From positions 248,001-312,000 of the forward strand of contig NZ_JHXO01000011.1 in assembly GCF_000621705.1 (NCBI RefSeq): a DNA stretch of 64,000 nt. The letters run 5' to 3'. Shown piece by piece: positions 168 to 55,271 of the stretch (positions are counted from its first letter, which is position 1; each line of letters opens with the position of its first letter). Made by a program: the position numbers and the translations under genes. The stretch comes from Prolixibacter bellariivorans ATCC BAA-1284. Its GTDB lineage: Bacteria > Bacteroidota > Bacteroidia > Bacteroidales > Prolixibacteraceae. The notes under the pieces were generated by a model. That model did no database searches. It was not told where the DNA came from and saw nothing but the letters and a program-made list of their open reading frames with translations.

Positions 168-1211
168 ATGGATATTGCAAAGAGATTCGCCGGGAACCCG
201 ATTTTACGGCCGGGCGACCTGAAACCAAGTAAGGACGGATTGAAAATTGAATGTCTGCTCAATCCCGGAGTATTTCGGTATGACGGGAAAATCTGGATGT
301 TGCTACGGGTGGCCGAACGCCCGGAACAAAAGGATGGGCTGACTTCCTTTCCTGTTTACAGTGAAGATGGTGAGTTACAGATTATGGAGTTTAAGAATGA
401 TGATCCGGATTTGGATTTATCCGATCCGCGGGTTATCAGCTATCAGGGACAGGATTATCTGACGACTATCTCGCATCTAAGGCTGGTTTGCAGTGAAGAT
501 GGAATTCATTTTCATGAACCGGAAGGATATCCGTTGCTTACCGGCAAAGGTATTCACGAATCTTACGGTATTGAAGATTGCCGGGTATCACAAGTCGGGG
601 ATACATATCACCTTACCTACACGGCTGTTTCCCACCTGGGAGTTGGCGTTGGTTTGCGAACGACCAAAAACTGGAAAGATTTTGAACATCACGGGATGAT
701 TTTTCCGGCACATAATAAGGATTGTGCCATTTTCGAAGAGAAGGTTGACGAACGTTTTTATGCGTTTCATCGTCCCAGTAGTCCGGAAATTGGAGGAAAT
801 TATATTTGGTTGGCCAGTTCACCGGATGGTGATCACTGGGGAAATCATCAGTGTATTGCACAAACCCGAAAAGGGAAATGGGACAATGTACGCATTGGTG
901 CCGGTGCAGCCCCCATTCGCACGGATGAAGGCTGGCTGGAGATTTATCATGGAGCGAATGAGGATAATCAATATTGTCTGGGAGCCTTGCTGCTGGATAT
1001 AAATGATCCTTCCAACGTATTGGCCCGTTCCGAAGAGCCAATCATGGTGCCAACTGAAGAATATGAAAAGACCGGATTCTTTGGCAATGTCATCTTTACC
1101 AATGGACATCTGGTGGATGGTGATGAAATTGCCATGTATTACGGTGCGGCCGATGAAGTGATTTGCGGTGCAAAATTCTCTATCAGGGAAATTTTGGAAA
1201 CACTGCATTAG
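168..1211 (+). CDS. GH130 family glycoside phosphorylase/hydrolase (beta-mannoside active)
   Basis: A 347-residue five-bladed beta-propeller enzyme of GH130, the family of beta-mannoside phosphorylases and some beta-1,2-mannosidases. Visible family features are an N-terminal NPIL...LNPG stretch (10-34), the GIEDCR motif (134-139) whose Asp137 is the expected catalytic acid, AFHRPS (199-204), and GAGAAPI...GWLEIYHG (244-262). There is no signal peptide, so it should act in the cytoplasm on imported oligosaccharide. The open frame extends upstream to a TTG at 129, but ATG168 is preferred: it gives the normal N-terminus and has a purine-rich GGAAAGAAAG just upstream. I cannot tell phosphorolysis from hydrolysis without aligning the phosphate-binding residues. 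A transporter and a lipoprotein follow in the same operon. Confidence 0.88.
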   Translation: MDIAKRFAGNPILRPGDLKPSKDGLKIECLLNPGVFRYDGKIWMLLRVAERPEQKDGLTSFPVYSEDGELQIMEFKNDDPDLDLSDPRVISYQGQDYLTTISHLRLVCSEDGIHFHEPEGYPLLTGKGIHESYGIEDCRVSQVGDTYHLTYTAVSHLGVGVGLRTTKNWKDFEHHGMIFPAHNKDCAIFEEKVDERFYAFHRPSSPEIGGNYIWLASSPDGDHWGNHQCIAQTRKGKWDNVRIGAGAAPIRTDEGWLEIYHGANEDNQYCLGALLLDINDPSNVLARSEEPIMVPTEEYEKTGFFGNVIFTNGHLVDGDEIAMYYGAADEVICGAKFSIREILETLH

Positions 1212-1240
1212 AAAACGAATTACATCTCAACTGAGGAATT

Positions 1241-2476
1241 ATGCTGAAGAAACTGGTTAACGAATATCGCGTGTTCTATACCTATCCCAAGGGTATGCGG
1301 ATACTGCTGATTACAAATCTGATCTATTCGCTGGTATTACCGATTATCGAAATGTTTATCGGTGCATACATTATGCGAAATTCACATGAAGCCAAGCTGG
1401 TGGTTATTTTTCAGCTGGCTCTTTATTCCGGTATTCCGTTAACTTTTGCCATAAACGGTTTTCTTCTCCGGAAAATAAAGATTGCGTGGCTTTATTCCTT
1501 TGGGATGCTGCTTAGTGGCGTTTCCATGTCGGCCATGATGATGTTACACGAGCTGGATGCTACAGGCATAGGTCTTGCCGGATTGATTATGGGACTTTCC
1601 TACGGTTTCTTCTGGGCCAACCGCGATTTCCTGGCGTTGGAAACAACCAACGATAATAACCGTAATTACTATTACGGGCTGGAATCATTCTTCTATACAC
1701 TTACCGGGGTGATTGTGCCTTATGTAGTGGGTGTATTTATTGGGGCCACCGATGAACATCACTGGTTTGGAGGGAATACAAATGTTGCTTACCGAATCGT
1801 TACAGCGTCGGTCTTCCTGTTGACGATTATCTCCTCAATTGTGGTTCACAGGGGTGAGTTTGTTAACCCGAAACAGGAACGATTCATCTATTTTCGTTTT
1901 CATATTCTCTGGCGGAAAATGTTGGGACTGGCTACGCTGAAAGGACTGGCTCAGGGATACATTGTGACGGCTCCGGCCATGCTTATCATGAAGCTGGTGG
2001 GAAACGAAGATGTGTTGGGAACGGTTCAGGCGATTGGCGCAATTTTCTCGGCTATCGTTCTGTATCTTATTGGACGAATGGCGAAGCCGAAACATCGTAT
2101 CTACATCTTTTCGTTCGGTTTGCTGTTGTTTGCAACCGGTAGTTTCATCAATGCCGGGCTCTATTCGTCGCTGGGCGTGATTCTTTTCATGTTGTGTCTG
2201 GTTATGGCCCGCCCGCTGCTCGATGTAGCTTACTTCCCCATTCAGCTGAAGGTAATCGACAGGGTAGCAGCCATTGAAAAACGGAACCAATTTACCTATA
2301 TTTTGAATCACGAACTGGGATTGTACCTGGGACGTCTGATTGGTTGCGGACTTTTTATTTTGATGGCTAGTTACATCGGAGAGGACTTTGCGTTGAAATA
2401 TGCTTTAGTCATTATTGGTCTGTTGCAATTATTGTCCATTTTCGTTGCTAAGAATATCATCAATTCAAAATACTAA
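1241..2476 (+). CDS. MFS transporter, probably an oligosaccharide permease of the PUL
   Basis: A 411-residue polytopic inner-membrane protein with about 12 hydrophobic segments in two six-helix halves and a basic cytoplasmic loop near residues 205-225, as in the major facilitator superfamily. The sequence style is that of the YqgE-like MFS group, which is often found in Bacteroidetes glycan loci. It starts 29 nt after the GH130 gene and ends 3 nt before the next gene, so the three genes are almost certainly co-transcribed. The expected role is import of the disaccharide or oligosaccharide that the cytoplasmic GH130 enzyme then cleaves. The substrate is not visible from the sequence. Confidence 0.85.
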   Translation: MLKKLVNEYRVFYTYPKGMRILLITNLIYSLVLPIIEMFIGAYIMRNSHEAKLVVIFQLALYSGIPLTFAINGFLLRKIKIAWLYSFGMLLSGVSMSAMMMLHELDATGIGLAGLIMGLSYGFFWANRDFLALETTNDNNRNYYYGLESFFYTLTGVIVPYVVGVFIGATDEHHWFGGNTNVAYRIVTASVFLLTIISSIVVHRGEFVNPKQERFIYFRFHILWRKMLGLATLKGLAQGYIVTAPAMLIMKLVGNEDVLGTVQAIGAIFSAIVLYLIGRMAKPKHRIYIFSFGLLLFATGSFINAGLYSSLGVILFMLCLVMARPLLDVAYFPIQLKVIDRVAAIEKRNQFTYILNHELGLYLGRLIGCGLFILMASYIGEDFALKYALVIIGLLQLLSIFVAKNIINSKY

Positions 2477-2479
2477 ACC

Positions 2480-4210
2480 ATGAAGAGAATATTGTTGTTT
2501 GTTGCTGTCATCCTGATGCTGGCGTCCTGCACATCAAAGCCGGAGCTGCGTCATCAGGACAGAGTGCCGCAGAAAATGCTGGAGCGGATCGGTCAAATGT
2601 CCGATTTGCCGTCGCCTTATAAAATGCTTGACTGGAAAGCGAAAGCCCGGAAATTCGATCAATTGGTTTTCGATTCCACACAAACCGGCGATTACTGGCC
2701 GCTTATCTGGACGGACAATTCGCAAAAAAATTTCCCACAAAAGACATTTGGTCTGTATACCGCTATCGGCGATGTTCGCCAGGGACCAGACCATCATGAC
2801 GGAATTTTCCATGAATCACTGACCACGATGGGAGCGGTTCTCGGGGCCACCCTGATGGGCATTGACAAATCAAACCAGGATGGGAAAGATTACGTGAACA
2901 TGCTTCGGAATTATTTCAACAAGGATACGGGTTGGGATATCATGATGAACAATACCTGTCCTCAGGTGGCTCTGCTGGGAGGCGGTTACGGCCGCGACTG
3001 GTGGTACGATGTTTTTCCGAATGTCATCTATTACGGAATCATGAATTTCTATCCGAATGAGGAAAATGCCACTCCGCTGCTTCGGTCCATCGCAGATAAA
3101 TTTTTGGCGGCTGATTCGGTATTGAATGGTAACTATCATCATTCATTCTTCAATTACGGAAAACTGGAACCGGAAGACAGCCATATCTGTCCTCAGCAGG
3201 ATGCAGCGGCCGGACATGCCTATGTGTTATATGCAGCGTACAAAAAGTTCGGTGATAAGCGTTACCTCGAAGGTGCCAAATCTGCGTTGGACGCTTTATT
3301 AAGTCAAAAGGATAACACCTTCTATGAAATTTTGATGCCGTTCGGAGCGTATGTGGCTGCCCGTTTGAATGCCGAAGAAGGAACCCATTATGATTTTACC
3401 AAAATCATGAAATGGACCTTTAACGGAGATGCAAAATGCCGCAGAGGTTGGGGGGTTTTAGCTGACAATTGGAATGGTTTCGACGTTTCGGGACTGGTTG
3501 GCAGTACTTACGACAACGGTGGCTATGCTTTCCTGATGAATACTTTTGATGTGGCCTGGGCGTTGGTTCCTATGGTGCGCTACGATCCGACCTGGTCAAA
3601 AGTGGTTGGCAAATGGATGCTGAATGCGGCGAATGCGGCTCACCTGTTTTATCCGTACGAAATCCCGGACGATCATCAGACCATTCCTCAGTTGAAATCG
3701 GTAACCAAAGGTGTTATTGCTTACGAAGGTCTTACCAAGAAATCAGCTTACGAACAGTTTGCGGATATCAAAGCGCCGGTGGCGCAGGGAGATGGTCCCA
3801 ACTGGGTAAAAGGAAAGAATCCATGGGTAACCCAGTTCAGCGTGTATGGAAGTGCCCAGGCGGGTGTTTTCGGTAGCATTATCGATACCACCAATGTGAA
3901 AGGCATTCTTCAGCTCAACCTGTTGGCCTGCGATTTCTATCGCGATAAAGCATATCCTACTTATCTGTATAACAACCCTTATAAGGAGGCAAAAGCCATT
4001 AAAATTGATTGTGGTTCAGCTCCCGTTGATTTATACAATGCACTAACGCATAGCTTCATTCGGAAGAATGTAACCGGAAAAACCGAGTTTACGCTGGAAC
4101 CGAATGGCGTAGCCATGCTGGTATTGGTTCCGGCGAACGGAACGCCTGAATACAATGGAAACAAATTGTTGGTGAATAATGTGGTTGTTGATTATGCAAT
4201 CTCGAAATAG
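2480..4210 (+). CDS. PUL lipoprotein of unassigned family, possible alpha-toroid glycosidase
   Basis: A 576-residue protein with a lipoprotein signal (hydrophobic 4-14, then LASC with Cys17), so it is probably outer-membrane or surface anchored. I do not recognise the family. The central part (about 100-400) has repeated amphipathic helices with aromatic and Asp/His-rich turns, such as GPDHHDG near 106 and QQDAAAGHAY near 240. This is the look of an (alpha/alpha) toroid glycosidase or lyase; the last 120 residues look like a beta-sandwich. It directly follows the MFS gene (3-nt gap) in the GH130 operon, so a role in releasing the glycan cut later by GH130 is the natural inference. A binding protein is the alternative. 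The function is unproven. Confidence 0.6.
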   Translation: MKRILLFVAVILMLASCTSKPELRHQDRVPQKMLERIGQMSDLPSPYKMLDWKAKARKFDQLVFDSTQTGDYWPLIWTDNSQKNFPQKTFGLYTAIGDVRQGPDHHDGIFHESLTTMGAVLGATLMGIDKSNQDGKDYVNMLRNYFNKDTGWDIMMNNTCPQVALLGGGYGRDWWYDVFPNVIYYGIMNFYPNEENATPLLRSIADKFLAADSVLNGNYHHSFFNYGKLEPEDSHICPQQDAAAGHAYVLYAAYKKFGDKRYLEGAKSALDALLSQKDNTFYEILMPFGAYVAARLNAEEGTHYDFTKIMKWTFNGDAKCRRGWGVLADNWNGFDVSGLVGSTYDNGGYAFLMNTFDVAWALVPMVRYDPTWSKVVGKWMLNAANAAHLFYPYEIPDDHQTIPQLKSVTKGVIAYEGLTKKSAYEQFADIKAPVAQGDGPNWVKGKNPWVTQFSVYGSAQAGVFGSIIDTTNVKGILQLNLLACDFYRDKAYPTYLYNNPYKEAKAIKIDCGSAPVDLYNALTHSFIRKNVTGKTEFTLEPNGVAMLVLVPANGTPEYNGNKLLVNNVVVDYAISK

Positions 4211-4248
4211 ACAATAGAATATATTTTAGTTTAGTTTGGGTCAAATTG

Positions 4249-4290
4249 AAACGCGCCGCAGGTACACCCTGTTTGGCGCGTTTTTGTTTT
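4249..4290 (+). terminator. Rho-independent terminator of the GH130 operon
   Basis: A perfect 9-bp stem pairs AAACGCGCC (4249-4257) with GGCGCGTTT (4275-4283) around a 17-nt loop, followed at once by TTGTTTTTTT. It lies 39 nt after the lipoprotein stop and closes the plus-strand PUL transcript before the phased array begins. Confidence 0.85.
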
Positions 4291-4309
4291 TTTATGGTCT
4301 TCGTTTAGG

Positions 4310-4670
4310 GTGTGGTATTCTACCCCTGAGATGGAATTTTCTACCTCAGGGGATCCAACTTTCTACCTTTAGAGTAGACTTTTCCATGTTTAACCCGGAC
4401 TTTCCTGTTTTTAACCCAGGGCTTTCCGATCTCAGAAGAGAATCTTCCATTTTGGAAACGAAATCTTTCGGCCCAAAGGCACAATAATTCCCTCTTTCTC
4501 AGAAAATTTTTCGCATCGAAGAGAGAAATTTGAACCTTCTTCAGAGAAATTTCTCCCGGAAATATAGACTGTTTCGCCCCTGTAGGTGTAATCTTCTTTG
4601 TTTTTCGGAGAATTTTCAGTGTATAAAAACCGGCATCCTGAATCAGAGGTGGTGTTTTCTATTTCAAATA
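4310..4670. repeat. Phased non-coding array, ~17 degenerate units every ~21.2 bp
   Basis: This stretch lies between the convergent ends of the GH130 operon and the LytTR gene and holds no credible gene. A TTC-type core recurs at 4318, 4339, 4361, 4382, 4402, 4424, 4445, 4467, 4488, 4510, 4530 (TTG), 4551, 4573, 4594, 4615, 4635 (ATC) and 4657 (TTT). The steps are 20, 21 or 22 bp with a mean of 339/16 = 21.2 bp, which is two turns of B-DNA. Units look like 'AGA(C/A)TTTTCC' or 'GAGAAATTTC', with an A/G-rich left part and a pyrimidine-rich right part. The mixed steps break any reading frame, so it is not a coding repeat. Function is unknown; DNA-binding-site array or bent DNA are the options. 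Confidence 0.75.
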
Positions 4671-4682
4671 TTCAATCGTGAT

Positions 4683-5453
4683 TTACCGATCCAGCCAGTT
4701 GCGGAAGAAGCGGGCGCGCTCGCGGCTGACAATGATTTTTTCTTCTGACTCGGGTTTGGTTTTCACGATGAGTTTACCGTTGAACCAATTGTTCACCCGG
4801 CTTACCGCATCGATGTTGATGATAAACTGCCGGTTGGCCCGGAAAAACTGTTCCGGATCGAGTTGCTTTTCCAGTTTATCCAGCGGATGATCGACCACGT
4901 GATTCACTTGCTGAAAAGTCGTGGCGGTAGTGGTTTTTTGTGAGCTGTATAAATAGGCAATGTCGTTGACATTGATCTTCACAAAACCGTCAGCGGTGGG
5001 AACAGCCATCCGTGTACGGTATTTTTTCTGTCCGCTGAGCAATGCTTCAGCAAGATCTTTGTAATCCGAGCCCAACAGTTCGGTAGCTTTAACCTGTTTT
5101 TGCATCGCGTCAAGCTTCTCGATGCTCTTCTCCAGCATCGCTGGCTCAATGGGTTTCAGCAAATAGTCTACGCTGTTGACCCGGAACGCCTGAATGGCAT
5201 ATTCGTCGTACGAGGTAACAAAAATGACGAACGATTGCGGTTGAACGGCATCAAATATCTCGAAACAGATGCCGTCGGAGAGTTGAATGTCGGAGAAAAT
5301 GAGATCGGGATCGGGATGTTTTTTTAACCAGGCCACCGAATCACGCACGCTGTCCAGGCAGGCAAGGATTTGCCAGTCGGGCCTGAGGCTGGTGATGAGC
5401 TCGGTCATCATTCGCTGCGTAGGTAATTCATCTTCAATTATCAGCACATTCAT
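4683..5453 (-). CDS. LytTR-family response regulator
   Basis: A 256-residue two-domain regulator. The receiver domain (1-120) has the acidic pair E7-D8, phospho-acceptor Asp55 in FSDIQLSDG, the Thr80 switch and Lys100 in YLLKP. The C-terminal LytTR DNA-binding domain (about 150-255) contains the typical VNDIAYLYS and FFRANRQFIINIDAV stretches. It begins 12 nt after the stop of the LytS-type kinase gene and forms a pair with it. LytTR domains bind 9-bp direct repeats spaced by about two helical turns; the phased array begins immediately downstream of this gene. Targets are otherwise unknown. The family call is firm. Confidence 0.95.
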   Translation of the reverse strand: MNVLIIEDELPTQRMMTELITSLRPDWQILACLDSVRDSVAWLKKHPDPDLIFSDIQLSDGICFEIFDAVQPQSFVIFVTSYDEYAIQAFRVNSVDYLLKPIEPAMLEKSIEKLDAMQKQVKATELLGSDYKDLAEALLSGQKKYRTRMAVPTADGFVKINVNDIAYLYSSQKTTTATTFQQVNHVVDHPLDKLEKQLDPEQFFRANRQFIINIDAVSRVNNWFNGKLIVKTKPESEEKIIVSRERARFFRNWLDR

Positions 5454-5465
5454 AACAATGCGTAT

Positions 5466-6488
5466 TTAATCCAGAAGCGGGATTTGTACCGCGAATTCGA
5501 TTTCTGTTTCAATGATTTTAATGGTTTTACCAGACAATAACCGGTATCGATCGGATAAATTATTCAACCCGGTTCCGGCACTGTAAGTTGTCTTTTTTTC
5601 CTGCCGGTTATTCCTTACCTCCAACATCATCTTTTCGGCGTCAGTCTTCAGATTGATATGAAGCGGTTCCTTTTCCGTTGCCCGGTTGTGCTTGAGCGCA
5701 TTCTCAACCAGTATTTGCAAGGTGAATGGAGGAATGCGTGACTTTAACAATTCCGGCTCAATCTGGTTTTCCAAAAAGACAGCTTCACCTAGCCTGATTT
5801 TATGCAGAAAAATGAACTTTTCGGTGAATTTCAATTCTTTTTCGAGTGTAATGGTTTCGTCGTCGCGGCGTTGCAATACGTAGCGATATACATCGGCCAT
5901 CTTTCGGGCAAACTCTTCCGCTTTATCGGGGTTATACCGAATCTCAGAAATGAGCACACTCAGACTGTTGAACAGGAAATGTGGGTTCATCTGGTTCTGT
6001 AGAACCCGGTATTCCGATTTCAGTTTTTCCTGTTTTAGCTTTTCGTTCTCGATGAGTGAATTGCGCCAGTTGGAGAAGAAGCTACGCAGGAACAGAATAC
6101 TGTTAAAGATGAGGACGAAAATAGCACCGAAAGCATAGGTCAAAACAATTCCACGAAAGTGCAAATTGGGATGGATGGTGTCCCTTGGAAGGACAGTGAA
6201 CATCGCAAAGCCCACGATAGCTGTCCATAGCAGACTTAATGAAACCTGCTTGTATACCCTTGGAACAATGCGAAAGAACCACGGCGTTTTCCGGTCGAGA
6301 TACCGGTTAATGAGAATGTTTCCTTCGCTGAGCAGGTTGAAACCAATGATGGCCAGAATATACGGATATGAGTCGTTAAGCGGATTTTGCGTGGGCGTCA
6401 GAATAAAATTGACAAACTGAAGGGTCAGGAGGGCCAGTATGGACACAATGCCCAAACGTATCAATGTGAAGCGAAACTTATTCGACAT
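5466..6488 (-). CDS. LytS/YehU-type sensor histidine kinase (His_kinase PF06580 type)
   Basis: A 340-residue inner-membrane kinase with four N-terminal hydrophobic segments (about 10-30, 41-60, 82-100, 112-135), a coiled linker (140-165), the phosphorylation motif NQMNPHFLFNSL with His170, and a compact ATPase domain with the N-box LVENALKHN and G-box GTGLNNLSDR. The frame is open back to 6527, but ATG6488 is preferred because AAGGAAGG sits just upstream and the protein then starts shortly before the first helix. It pairs with the LytTR regulator downstream. The efflux operon ends 103 nt upstream on the same strand, which hints at shared regulation. Confidence 0.93.
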   Translation of the reverse strand: MSNKFRFTLIRLGIVSILALLTLQFVNFILTPTQNPLNDSYPYILAIIGFNLLSEGNILINRYLDRKTPWFFRIVPRVYKQVSLSLLWTAIVGFAMFTVLPRDTIHPNLHFRGIVLTYAFGAIFVLIFNSILFLRSFFSNWRNSLIENEKLKQEKLKSEYRVLQNQMNPHFLFNSLSVLISEIRYNPDKAEEFARKMADVYRYVLQRRDDETITLEKELKFTEKFIFLHKIRLGEAVFLENQIEPELLKSRIPPFTLQILVENALKHNRATEKEPLHINLKTDAEKMMLEVRNNRQEKKTTYSAGTGLNNLSDRYRLLSGKTIKIIETEIEFAVQIPLLD

Positions 6489-6591
6489 GATGCCTTCCTT
6501 TTTATCTCCGAGTCCGAAATATAGCATAATTCTTTACGTTCTAAAATTAGCGGATACGAATCCCTTCAGCCTGTCAATGAATCACCACAGG

Positions 6592-54447: not shown

Positions 54448-54800
54448 TTTTATTTATGTTTTGTGACAATGATAAAGTGTTTGGGTAGTTGAAAAATAAA
54501 AAATCGGCAAATTGCAGGTTTAGCTATGGATTCGACGATTTTACAACTTTGAGTATAAAATCAGCTTTTGTCCATTTGTCTTTTCCGGCTGTTTTGTGAG
54601 TTGCCGTTTTCATTACAGAAACAACACGCAACGAACTACCCGGATTTATCCTGATTATTTCATTGACATGTGAAGATGTGTTATCAGGTATTCATTCCAT
54701 CCCGTTTGCGTCTAACGAACCACTTTTAGTCACCTGAATGGCTTCACCCGCATCTGGCGGAGCACGCTGAATGACTGAAAGTGGCTCAACAGATGGTGAC
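54448..54800. other. Non-coding region upstream of the DUF6624 gene
   Basis: About 350 nt between the DUF6624 start and the well-ordered array. It has no credible gene. Weak ~20-bp periodicity appears in the right half and grades into the array. No promoter match of the TTTG/TAnnTTTG type stands out. Confidence 0.5.
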
Positions 54801-55185
54801 GAAGCGCCTTTAGTAACCGGGATCACTTTGTCAAATCGTGATGAATTACCTCTGGCAACTCAGGCGCTTCATTTCAATCGAATGAAGCACTCGTATCTGT
54901 CCAGACTGTTCGTGCACGCTGCATGAAGTGCTCGTATTTGTACAAGACGTTTGTGCACGCTGCACGGAATGCTGGTATGTGTACGGGACGCTCATGCGCA
55001 CCGCTTGAAGTGCTCATATTGATGCAGGCTGTTCATGCACGCGGGATGAAGTGTCTTTATGTATCCAGACTGTTCTTGCACGCTGCATGAAGCGATCGTA
55101 TTTGTACAAGACGTTTGTATGCGCTGCACGGAATGCTGGTATGTGTACGGGACGCTCATGCACGCTGCTGAAGTGCGTCAGTTTC
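54801..55185. repeat. 41-bp tandem array of paired ~9-bp half-sites
   Basis: Two half-site types alternate. Type A (ACTGTTCGT-like) starts at 54905, 54946, 54987, 55028, 55069, 55110 and 55151, exactly 41 bp apart each time. Type B (AGTGCTCGT-like) starts at 54886, 54927, 54968, 55009, 55050, 55091, 55132 and 55172 (41, last 40). A to B steps are 22 bp and B to A steps are 19 bp. A 164-bp (4-unit) block near 54933-54997 recurs at 55097-55161 with few changes, so copies spread by duplication. Weaker copies continue to about 54801. A 41-bp period is not a multiple of 3, so it is not coding. Confidence 0.85.
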
Positions 55186-55271
55186 GGGAAGATACTTGTC
55201 ACGCAGCAACGGATACCTCCCGGAAAGCCAGGTACTTTATCTGATGACGGTGGAGTATCTCTGTGGGCTGT

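Follow-up and report, generated by a model that had tools for sequence, protein, structure and literature searches.

Plasmid iterons are helically phased direct repeats of about 21-22 bp; they share a single conserved sequence, which a replication initiator binds. The operators of LytTR-family regulators, as the sections of PMC6193735 drawn on here describe them, consist of one pair of direct repeats just upstream of a promoter, the two mostly 12 bp apart and in some cases 11 or 13, which amounts to a spacing of ~21-22 bp from centre to centre. Within the Bacteroidales, Porphyromonas gingivalis W83 carries tandem repeats of 22, 23 and 41 nt, including BrickBuilt and 464/PgRS, and the 23- and 41-nt repeats within two P. 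gingivalis MITE types have no mutual homology. BrickBuilt itself is intergenic and has one shared sequence with a leader, a tail and terminal inverted repeats; it occurs 19 times in one genome, with both ends kept in 4 of the 19 copies only (all as given in the sections of PMC4596501 drawn on here).

How does a diverged repeat tract from another member of this order compare with these systems? Here we describe such a tract in Prolixibacter bellariivorans ATCC BAA-1284, in a stretch of 64,000 nucleotides (contig NZ_JHXO01000011.1, 248,001 to 312,000) that we call the window. The tract shares phased direct repeats of ~21-22 bp with plasmid iterons, but it is chromosomal and diverged. With the LytTR operators of PMC6193735, in the sections cited, it shares the centre-to-centre spacing; those are a single pair before a promoter, whereas the tract runs to ~17 units, lies 3' of both convergent genes and is not always retained alongside the protein. 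The array class to which we assign the tract resembles the P. gingivalis repeats of PMC4596501 in its order, in its unit lengths and in a copy number that varies at shared places. It differs from BrickBuilt, as described in those same sections, in that the tract is single in its genome, that terminal inverted pairs of at least 12 nt were not found around it (4100-4900), and that the class falls into many sequence clusters. In the titles and abstract openings that we surveyed, with subscription journals mostly outside the survey, no statement of unit-size classes as a rule for the noncoding arrays of this group was found.

The Locus and Its Periodicity

Two convergent genes end on either side of a gap, 4211-4682, bounded by their stop codons, and the tract occupies part of it. 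We compared four Prolixibacter genomes: that of the window (G000), G112 (presumably P. denitrificans DSM 27267), G113 and G114. The features of the window are:

2480 to 4210, forward strand: convergent neighbour of 576 aa, without a Pfam match at E 0.001 (ORF list, Pfam).
About 4250 to 4293, forward strand: terminator-like bulged hairpin (ACGCGCC / GGCGCGT) with a T-run, 5' of the tract (read by eye).
4318 to 4678, no strand assigned: the tract, ~17 units of 20-22 bp, each running from pyrimidine-rich to purine-rich with TTC at its start (autocorrelation, TTC chain).
4318 to 4400, no strand assigned: first four units, the best conserved, 74-79% identical to G113 in 42-bp steps (alignment).
4401 to 4610, no strand assigned: interior units, 33-52% identical to G113 in 42-bp steps, net length unchanged (alignment).
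4611 to 4682, no strand assigned: last units, 55-57% identical to G113, reaching the stop codon of the regulator gene (alignment).
4683 to 5453, reverse strand: response regulator with receiver and LytTR domains (ORF list, Pfam).
5466 to 6527, reverse strand: histidine kinase gene (PF06580) beside the regulator gene (ORF list, Pfam).
54700 to 55260, no strand assigned: a second array, of 41-bp units, with 7.2 copies at 54882-55176 (Tandem Repeats Finder, autocorrelation).

An earlier note on this DNA had the tract span the whole gap, but the terminator-like sequence takes up ~4250-4293, and sequences resembling it are present in G112, G113 and G114. A simple terminator scan, whose loop limit is 8, reported none, and the two sub-threshold Rfam matches both lie over the terminator region (4176-4293) and leave the tract uncovered. 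The one promoter-like match, against 0.8 expected, falls outside the tract.

The same note had counted 17 positions with a TTC-type core at intervals of 20-22 bp. Exact TTC stands on 15 of these 17 lattice positions (4318, 4339, 4361, 4382, 4402, 4424, 4445, 4467, 4488, 4510, 4551, 4573, 4594, 4615 and 4657), in steps of 21, 22, 21, 20, 22, 21, 22, 21, 22, 41, 22, 21, 21 and 42 bp with a mean step of 21.25 bp; the two remaining positions, near 4531 and near 4636, are degenerate. The comparison with shuffled controls that the note had proposed bears the periodicity out. A TTC chain of 15 was matched by none of 5000 dinucleotide shuffles, the longest shuffled chain being 9, and the base-identity autocorrelation of 4284-4682 at lag 21 (0.421, against a shuffle mean of 0.265 and an sd of 0.023) was likewise reached by none of 5000. 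An additional peak lies at lag 42-43. Reduced to pyrimidine and purine, the sequence correlates positively with itself at lags 21 and 42 and negatively at 10-11 and 31-32. Self-similarity is strongest at lags 212, 106 and 21; as the first two are as strong as the third, the tract contains a hidden five-unit repeat of 106 bp.

Units 1-5 (4318 to 4423) make up one such block. It is this block that has been amplified in G113, where it also occurs at a second locus. Tandem Repeats Finder recovered only 2.4 copies (4377-4427), a low count that follows from the strong divergence among units. The tract consists of head-to-tail copies of one unit in a noncoding gap, as a minisatellite does. A protein-coding repeat can be rejected, because the ORFs over the tract are short and the 20/21/22 steps disrupt the frame.

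Conservation in Other Prolixibacter Genomes

The tract is periodic with a 106-bp block, it is orthologous in three of the four Prolixibacter genomes (G000, G113 and G114, but not G112), and its family occurs at a second locus in one sister species. Relatives thus keep what was first noticed in the window, a degenerate noncoding tract whose phase is close to two helical turns. The intergenic region measures 472 bp in both G000 and G113, and the two tracts align with no gap inside the tract despite the low interior identity. The better-conserved part runs from the terminator to the fourth unit. The proposal that spacing rather than sequence is conserved stands in part only: identity to G113 is 74-79% in the first four units and drops to 33-52% in the interior, with no net change in length there, and to 55-57% at the far end.

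The intergenic region of the tract shows 3 gaps to 188 substitutions, against 211 to 4336 across 100 aligned intergenic regions (five of 105, with length differences above 200 bp, were excluded). This low rate is suggestive only, since several other regions are equally low and the ungapped alignment hides what is likely a compensated one-base shift at units 4/5, where a step of 20 precedes one of 22.

Copy number and unit identity differ among the relatives at the same place. The G113 tract comprises 3.4 copies of a 106-bp, five-unit block, that of G000 is diverged, that of G114 is partial, and G112 has none. Probably the G000 and G113 tracts descend from one array of five-unit blocks, of which one has been homogenised and the other worn. 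The G114 match to the window tract extends to about 4411; there the tract family adjoins the same convergent gene and lies ~4.5 kb from lytTR, with other genes in between. In G112, the terminator directly abuts the lytTR stop codon, and a search for the tract family across that genome returned no significant match (best E 0.07). A second copy of the window tract in its own genome was likewise not found at significance (best other E 0.15). The second G113 locus, at 999.37-999.51 kb, has the same run of units. Its neighbours are presumably genes of exopolysaccharide type: on one side what we take, from translations, to be a nucleotide-sugar dehydrogenase and a flippase-like protein, and on the other, past short ORFs, a presumed chain-length-determinant-like protein, also named from its translation.

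Downstream of lytTR in G114 (L011), a second lytTR 3' end lies beyond the genes inserted between lytTR and the array, as if the insertion had duplicated that end. By eye, we take the inserted genes to be MazF-like and AbrB-like.

A Wider Class of Noncoding Arrays

Is the window tract one of a kind? Intergenic regions were scanned for ungapped self-similarity in G000 (C9, C3 and C5, 1.25 Mb), G113 (0.56 Mb), G112 (0.24 Mb) and G114 (0.1 Mb), and in one genome from each of seven other Prolixibacteraceae genera (0.1 Mb each). Gene calls were by longest ORF only, so that arrays within spurious ORFs are missed (one was seen, at G113 72.8-73.2 kb), and intergenic regions with tRNA genes and CRISPR-like regions (four in G113 at 345-353 kb, one in L091) were dropped before counting. 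The CRISPR-like arrays at G113:C1 345174-352764 (L176) have a repeat spacing of ~64-67 bp.

At a score cut of 20, under which the window tract itself falls with 18.8, the best period lay near a multiple of ~21 in 14 of 25 regions in G000, in 13 of 13 in G113 and in both of those in G112 and G114, where 20% would be expected; this set of periods was picked after the first scans had been seen. The seven other genera gave 5 of 10, against the same 20%. Shuffled intergenic regions of the Prolixibacteraceae sets produced no hits. Among 79 loci, nearly all from other Bacteroidota, 5 of 13 lay near a multiple of 21 (p 0.1), with one shuffled hit.

The restriction is sharpest in the longer arrays. When arrays of at least 3.6 copies in the scanned Prolixibacteraceae DNA are counted by fundamental unit at a cut of 18, 29 of 33 have units of 21-23, 41-42 or 106 bp (27 on the multiple-of-21 set and two at 23 bp), some of those counted being orthologues or common to one family; the other four have units of 12, 14, 14 and 18 bp. 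Below 2.6 copies units are more scattered, with 8 of 15 arrays on the multiple-of-21 set. BLAST clustering at E 1e-4 placed 32 of the 33 arrays (the 106-bp array lies just below the unrounded cut) in 25 clusters, 21 of which have units of 21-23 or 41-42 bp.

C5 of G000, scanned last, had 5 of 13 regions on the multiple-of-21 set; of the remaining eight, three lay at 23/46 bp and five at 24, 17, 14, 98 and 14. A 23-bp unit measures 2.2 turns, not two turns of 10.5. Given these C5 results and the 23-bp units, the safe statement is that there are two size classes, 21-23 and 41-42 bp, rather than a strict two-turn rule. The description of the spacing as exactly two turns accordingly suits the window tract and does not carry over to the wider class, which includes units of 22-23 bp.

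Several families recur. A 23-bp family has no matches in G112 or G114, and ten in each of the other two genomes, G000 and G113; it includes array C5 7391, one of the 27 counted on the multiple-of-21 set (fundamental unit 22, best period 23), which BLAST clustering keeps separate. A 41-bp family occupies two loci apiece in G000, G113 and G112, and G114 has none. The second array of the window, also of 41-bp units, has a G113 counterpart at the same place with changed units, as well as relatives elsewhere; its G112 matches lie on the lytTR contig, ~53 kb from lytTR as against 50 kb in the window. A similar 21/42-bp tract is found on a Carboxylicivirga MAG contig (L109). At C3:358089 of G112 (L240 1494-1535) stands a perfect two-copy 21-bp duplication that resembles, on the opposite strand, the core of the window tract's units and may be a nascent array; the gene downstream of it is presumably ECF-sigma-like, a name taken from its translation.

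Two further arrays deserve mention in their own right. At G113:C1 (L159 12888-15019), a transposase-like gene pair, which by eye we take to be IS3-like, is flanked on either side by 21-bp arrays from a single family, and a stretch with a matching repeat profile appears close to the opposite end of the record (L186, near 5131900); the IS may have landed in the array or carried it. At G000:C5 36684-37752 (L244 16684-17752), the palindromic cores of a 23-bp array change from one to the next while keeping to a single lattice (examples are GATCCTTATAAGGATC and GGTAGTTAGTACTACC), with a covariation p(max) of 0.02. A pattern scan of viral contigs for viral spread gave 0 matches.

Origin of the Tract

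What kind of element is the tract? We think it rather probable that the tract belongs to a class of minisatellite-like intergenic arrays in Prolixibacteraceae, of which it is an old and diverged example, and that such arrays are shaped by tandem growth and by copying in register, the geometry of two or four DNA turns acting as a filter on unit length. An array of this kind would begin from a short duplication, and slippage or unequal exchange would lengthen it by whole units and by blocks. In-register copying or conversion would then homogenise it with its length unchanged, and arrays would be kept or amplified mainly where the unit comes to about two or four helical turns. The filter might arise from a preference for that register on the part of the copying machinery or of a DNA-coating protein bound at every second turn.

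The alternative that fares best, possible though on balance unlikely, is an architectural element, in which two-turn spacing would be under selection either for the binding of a nucleoid-type protein (e.g. one of the HU family) at every second turn or for the bend that pyrimidine/purine steps in phase give to DNA. The conserved place and length of the tract fit this idea, as does the pyrimidine/purine alternation, with its 10-11 bp antiphase, in all three tract-bearing species. Curvature predicted from wedge parameters exceeds that of dinucleotide shuffles for the tract in G000, G113 and G114 (z -3.2, -5.6 and -6.4) and reaches z < -2 in 9 of 18 other arrays. However, curvature sums in any 21-bp tandem repeat, which makes the shuffle null too easy, unit sequences vary between arrays, and G112 does without the tract. 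The other nine of the 18, including all five tested Prolixibacter 41-bp arrays (C9b, C9c, C9d, C3a and G113e), are not predicted to be bent, and on that count we dismiss curvature as the general cause of the class. Bent DNA, one of the earlier suggestions, is possible for the window tract and does not extend to the class.

Could the tract be a BrickBuilt-type MITE? Its unit size class and intergenic place match those of the P. gingivalis repeats (as described in the sections of PMC4596501 used here), and some repeat families, such as the 23-bp one, are dispersed over several loci. Yet the tract is single in its own genome, no inverted repeats of at least 12 nt were found in 4100-4900, where degenerate ends could escape, and the window shows no enrichment of BrickBuilt ends (3 matches to the end sequence, where 5.0 are expected). 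We regard this origin as improbable.

A structured RNA, a row of ~21-nt hairpins, is more doubtful still and has very little probability in our estimation. The tract family does contain unit dyads, as the cyclic palindrome of the 43-bp G113 consensus shows (p 0.0025), and against dinucleotide shuffles the folds reach z -2.3 and -1.2 by strand for the window tract and about -4.4 on both strands for that of G113. Unit covariation gives p(max) <0.05 in 6 of 25 arrays, a test that the shared ancestry of units inflates. Set against column-shuffled units, by contrast, the window tract shows no excess of folding on either strand (p 0.105 and 0.35), and the structured-RNA alternative raised at the outset is not supported; Rfam also has no match on the tract. 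The same column-shuffled test is not significant on either strand in 16 of 19 other arrays and gives p <0.05 on a strand in three, the T1 orthologue, G074 and G114. As to dyad symmetry of the units in general, the cyclic-palindrome test of consensus units is clearly significant in the T1 family, with few low values elsewhere, and the shared ancestry of units limits what it can show. As a general rule, RNA hairpins are ruled out by the fold tests.

Least probable of all, and in our judgement very improbable, is a link to the adjoining regulator, whether as a row of sites bound by the LytTR protein or as a sponge that titrates it. The step of 20-22 bp does fit the centre-to-centre spacing of LytTR direct repeats 11-13 bp apart (PMC6193735, in the sections cited above), and a LytTR gene adjoins the tract in G000 and in G113. 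But the G112 protein, 95% identical to that of the window, has no tract beside it, in G114 the tract lies ~4.5 kb from lytTR, and at 999 kb in G113 the tract family has no LytTR neighbour, the nearest G113 match being at 1054 kb. Nor does the gap suit an operator: it lies between two stop codons, the tract holds no promoter, and its interior motif is not conserved between G000 and G113. A regulon would need further copies, and the tract is single-copy in its own genome. There, a narrow paired-core pattern occurs once, inside the tract itself; elsewhere it matches G112 at two places and G113 at one, and it misses the G113 tract.

The wider class shows no such association. Only one of 21 arrays with listed neighbours, the window tract, borders a LytTR gene, and all four arrangements of flanking genes are seen among the 21. 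G000 has 19 LytTR matches, six of them within the scanned stretches (C9 at 159.7 and 252.7 kb, C3 at 173.9 and 292.7 kb, C5 at 164.2 and 217.4 kb), and only the window's own borders a several-copy array; the C3 gene at 173.9 kb has a 2.7-copy, 23-bp repeat ~2 kb off. What is seen in G112 and at the second G113 locus, together with the searches of the tract's own genome, leads us to dismiss the suggested LytTR operators or sponge, and the neighbouring regulator appears incidental to the tract. Two-turn repeats beside a LytTR gene should not be taken for operators.

Implications

We return to the tract as a probable old member of a minisatellite-like array class. As a minisatellite it is ordinary; it is unusual as part of a class with restricted unit lengths and differing sequences. 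Why would length be restricted where sequence is not? One idea, which we put forward only tentatively, is a Bacteroidales array class set by a physical ruler and not by sequence, in which a duplicating enzyme or a DNA-coating protein that measures two or four turns would build or preserve arrays of unrelated sequence, with units of 21-23 and 41-42 bp and an interior that can be rewritten at constant length. The ruler may be a protein or the duplication process.

The most interesting outcome is the agreement in unit size, across families, between the arrays described here and the P. gingivalis repeats. If unit length is constrained but sequence is free, these arrays would be a natural assay for a length-measuring process acting on bacterial DNA. 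Since the size classes match those of P. gingivalis repeats described by length alone, one cause may act across an order.
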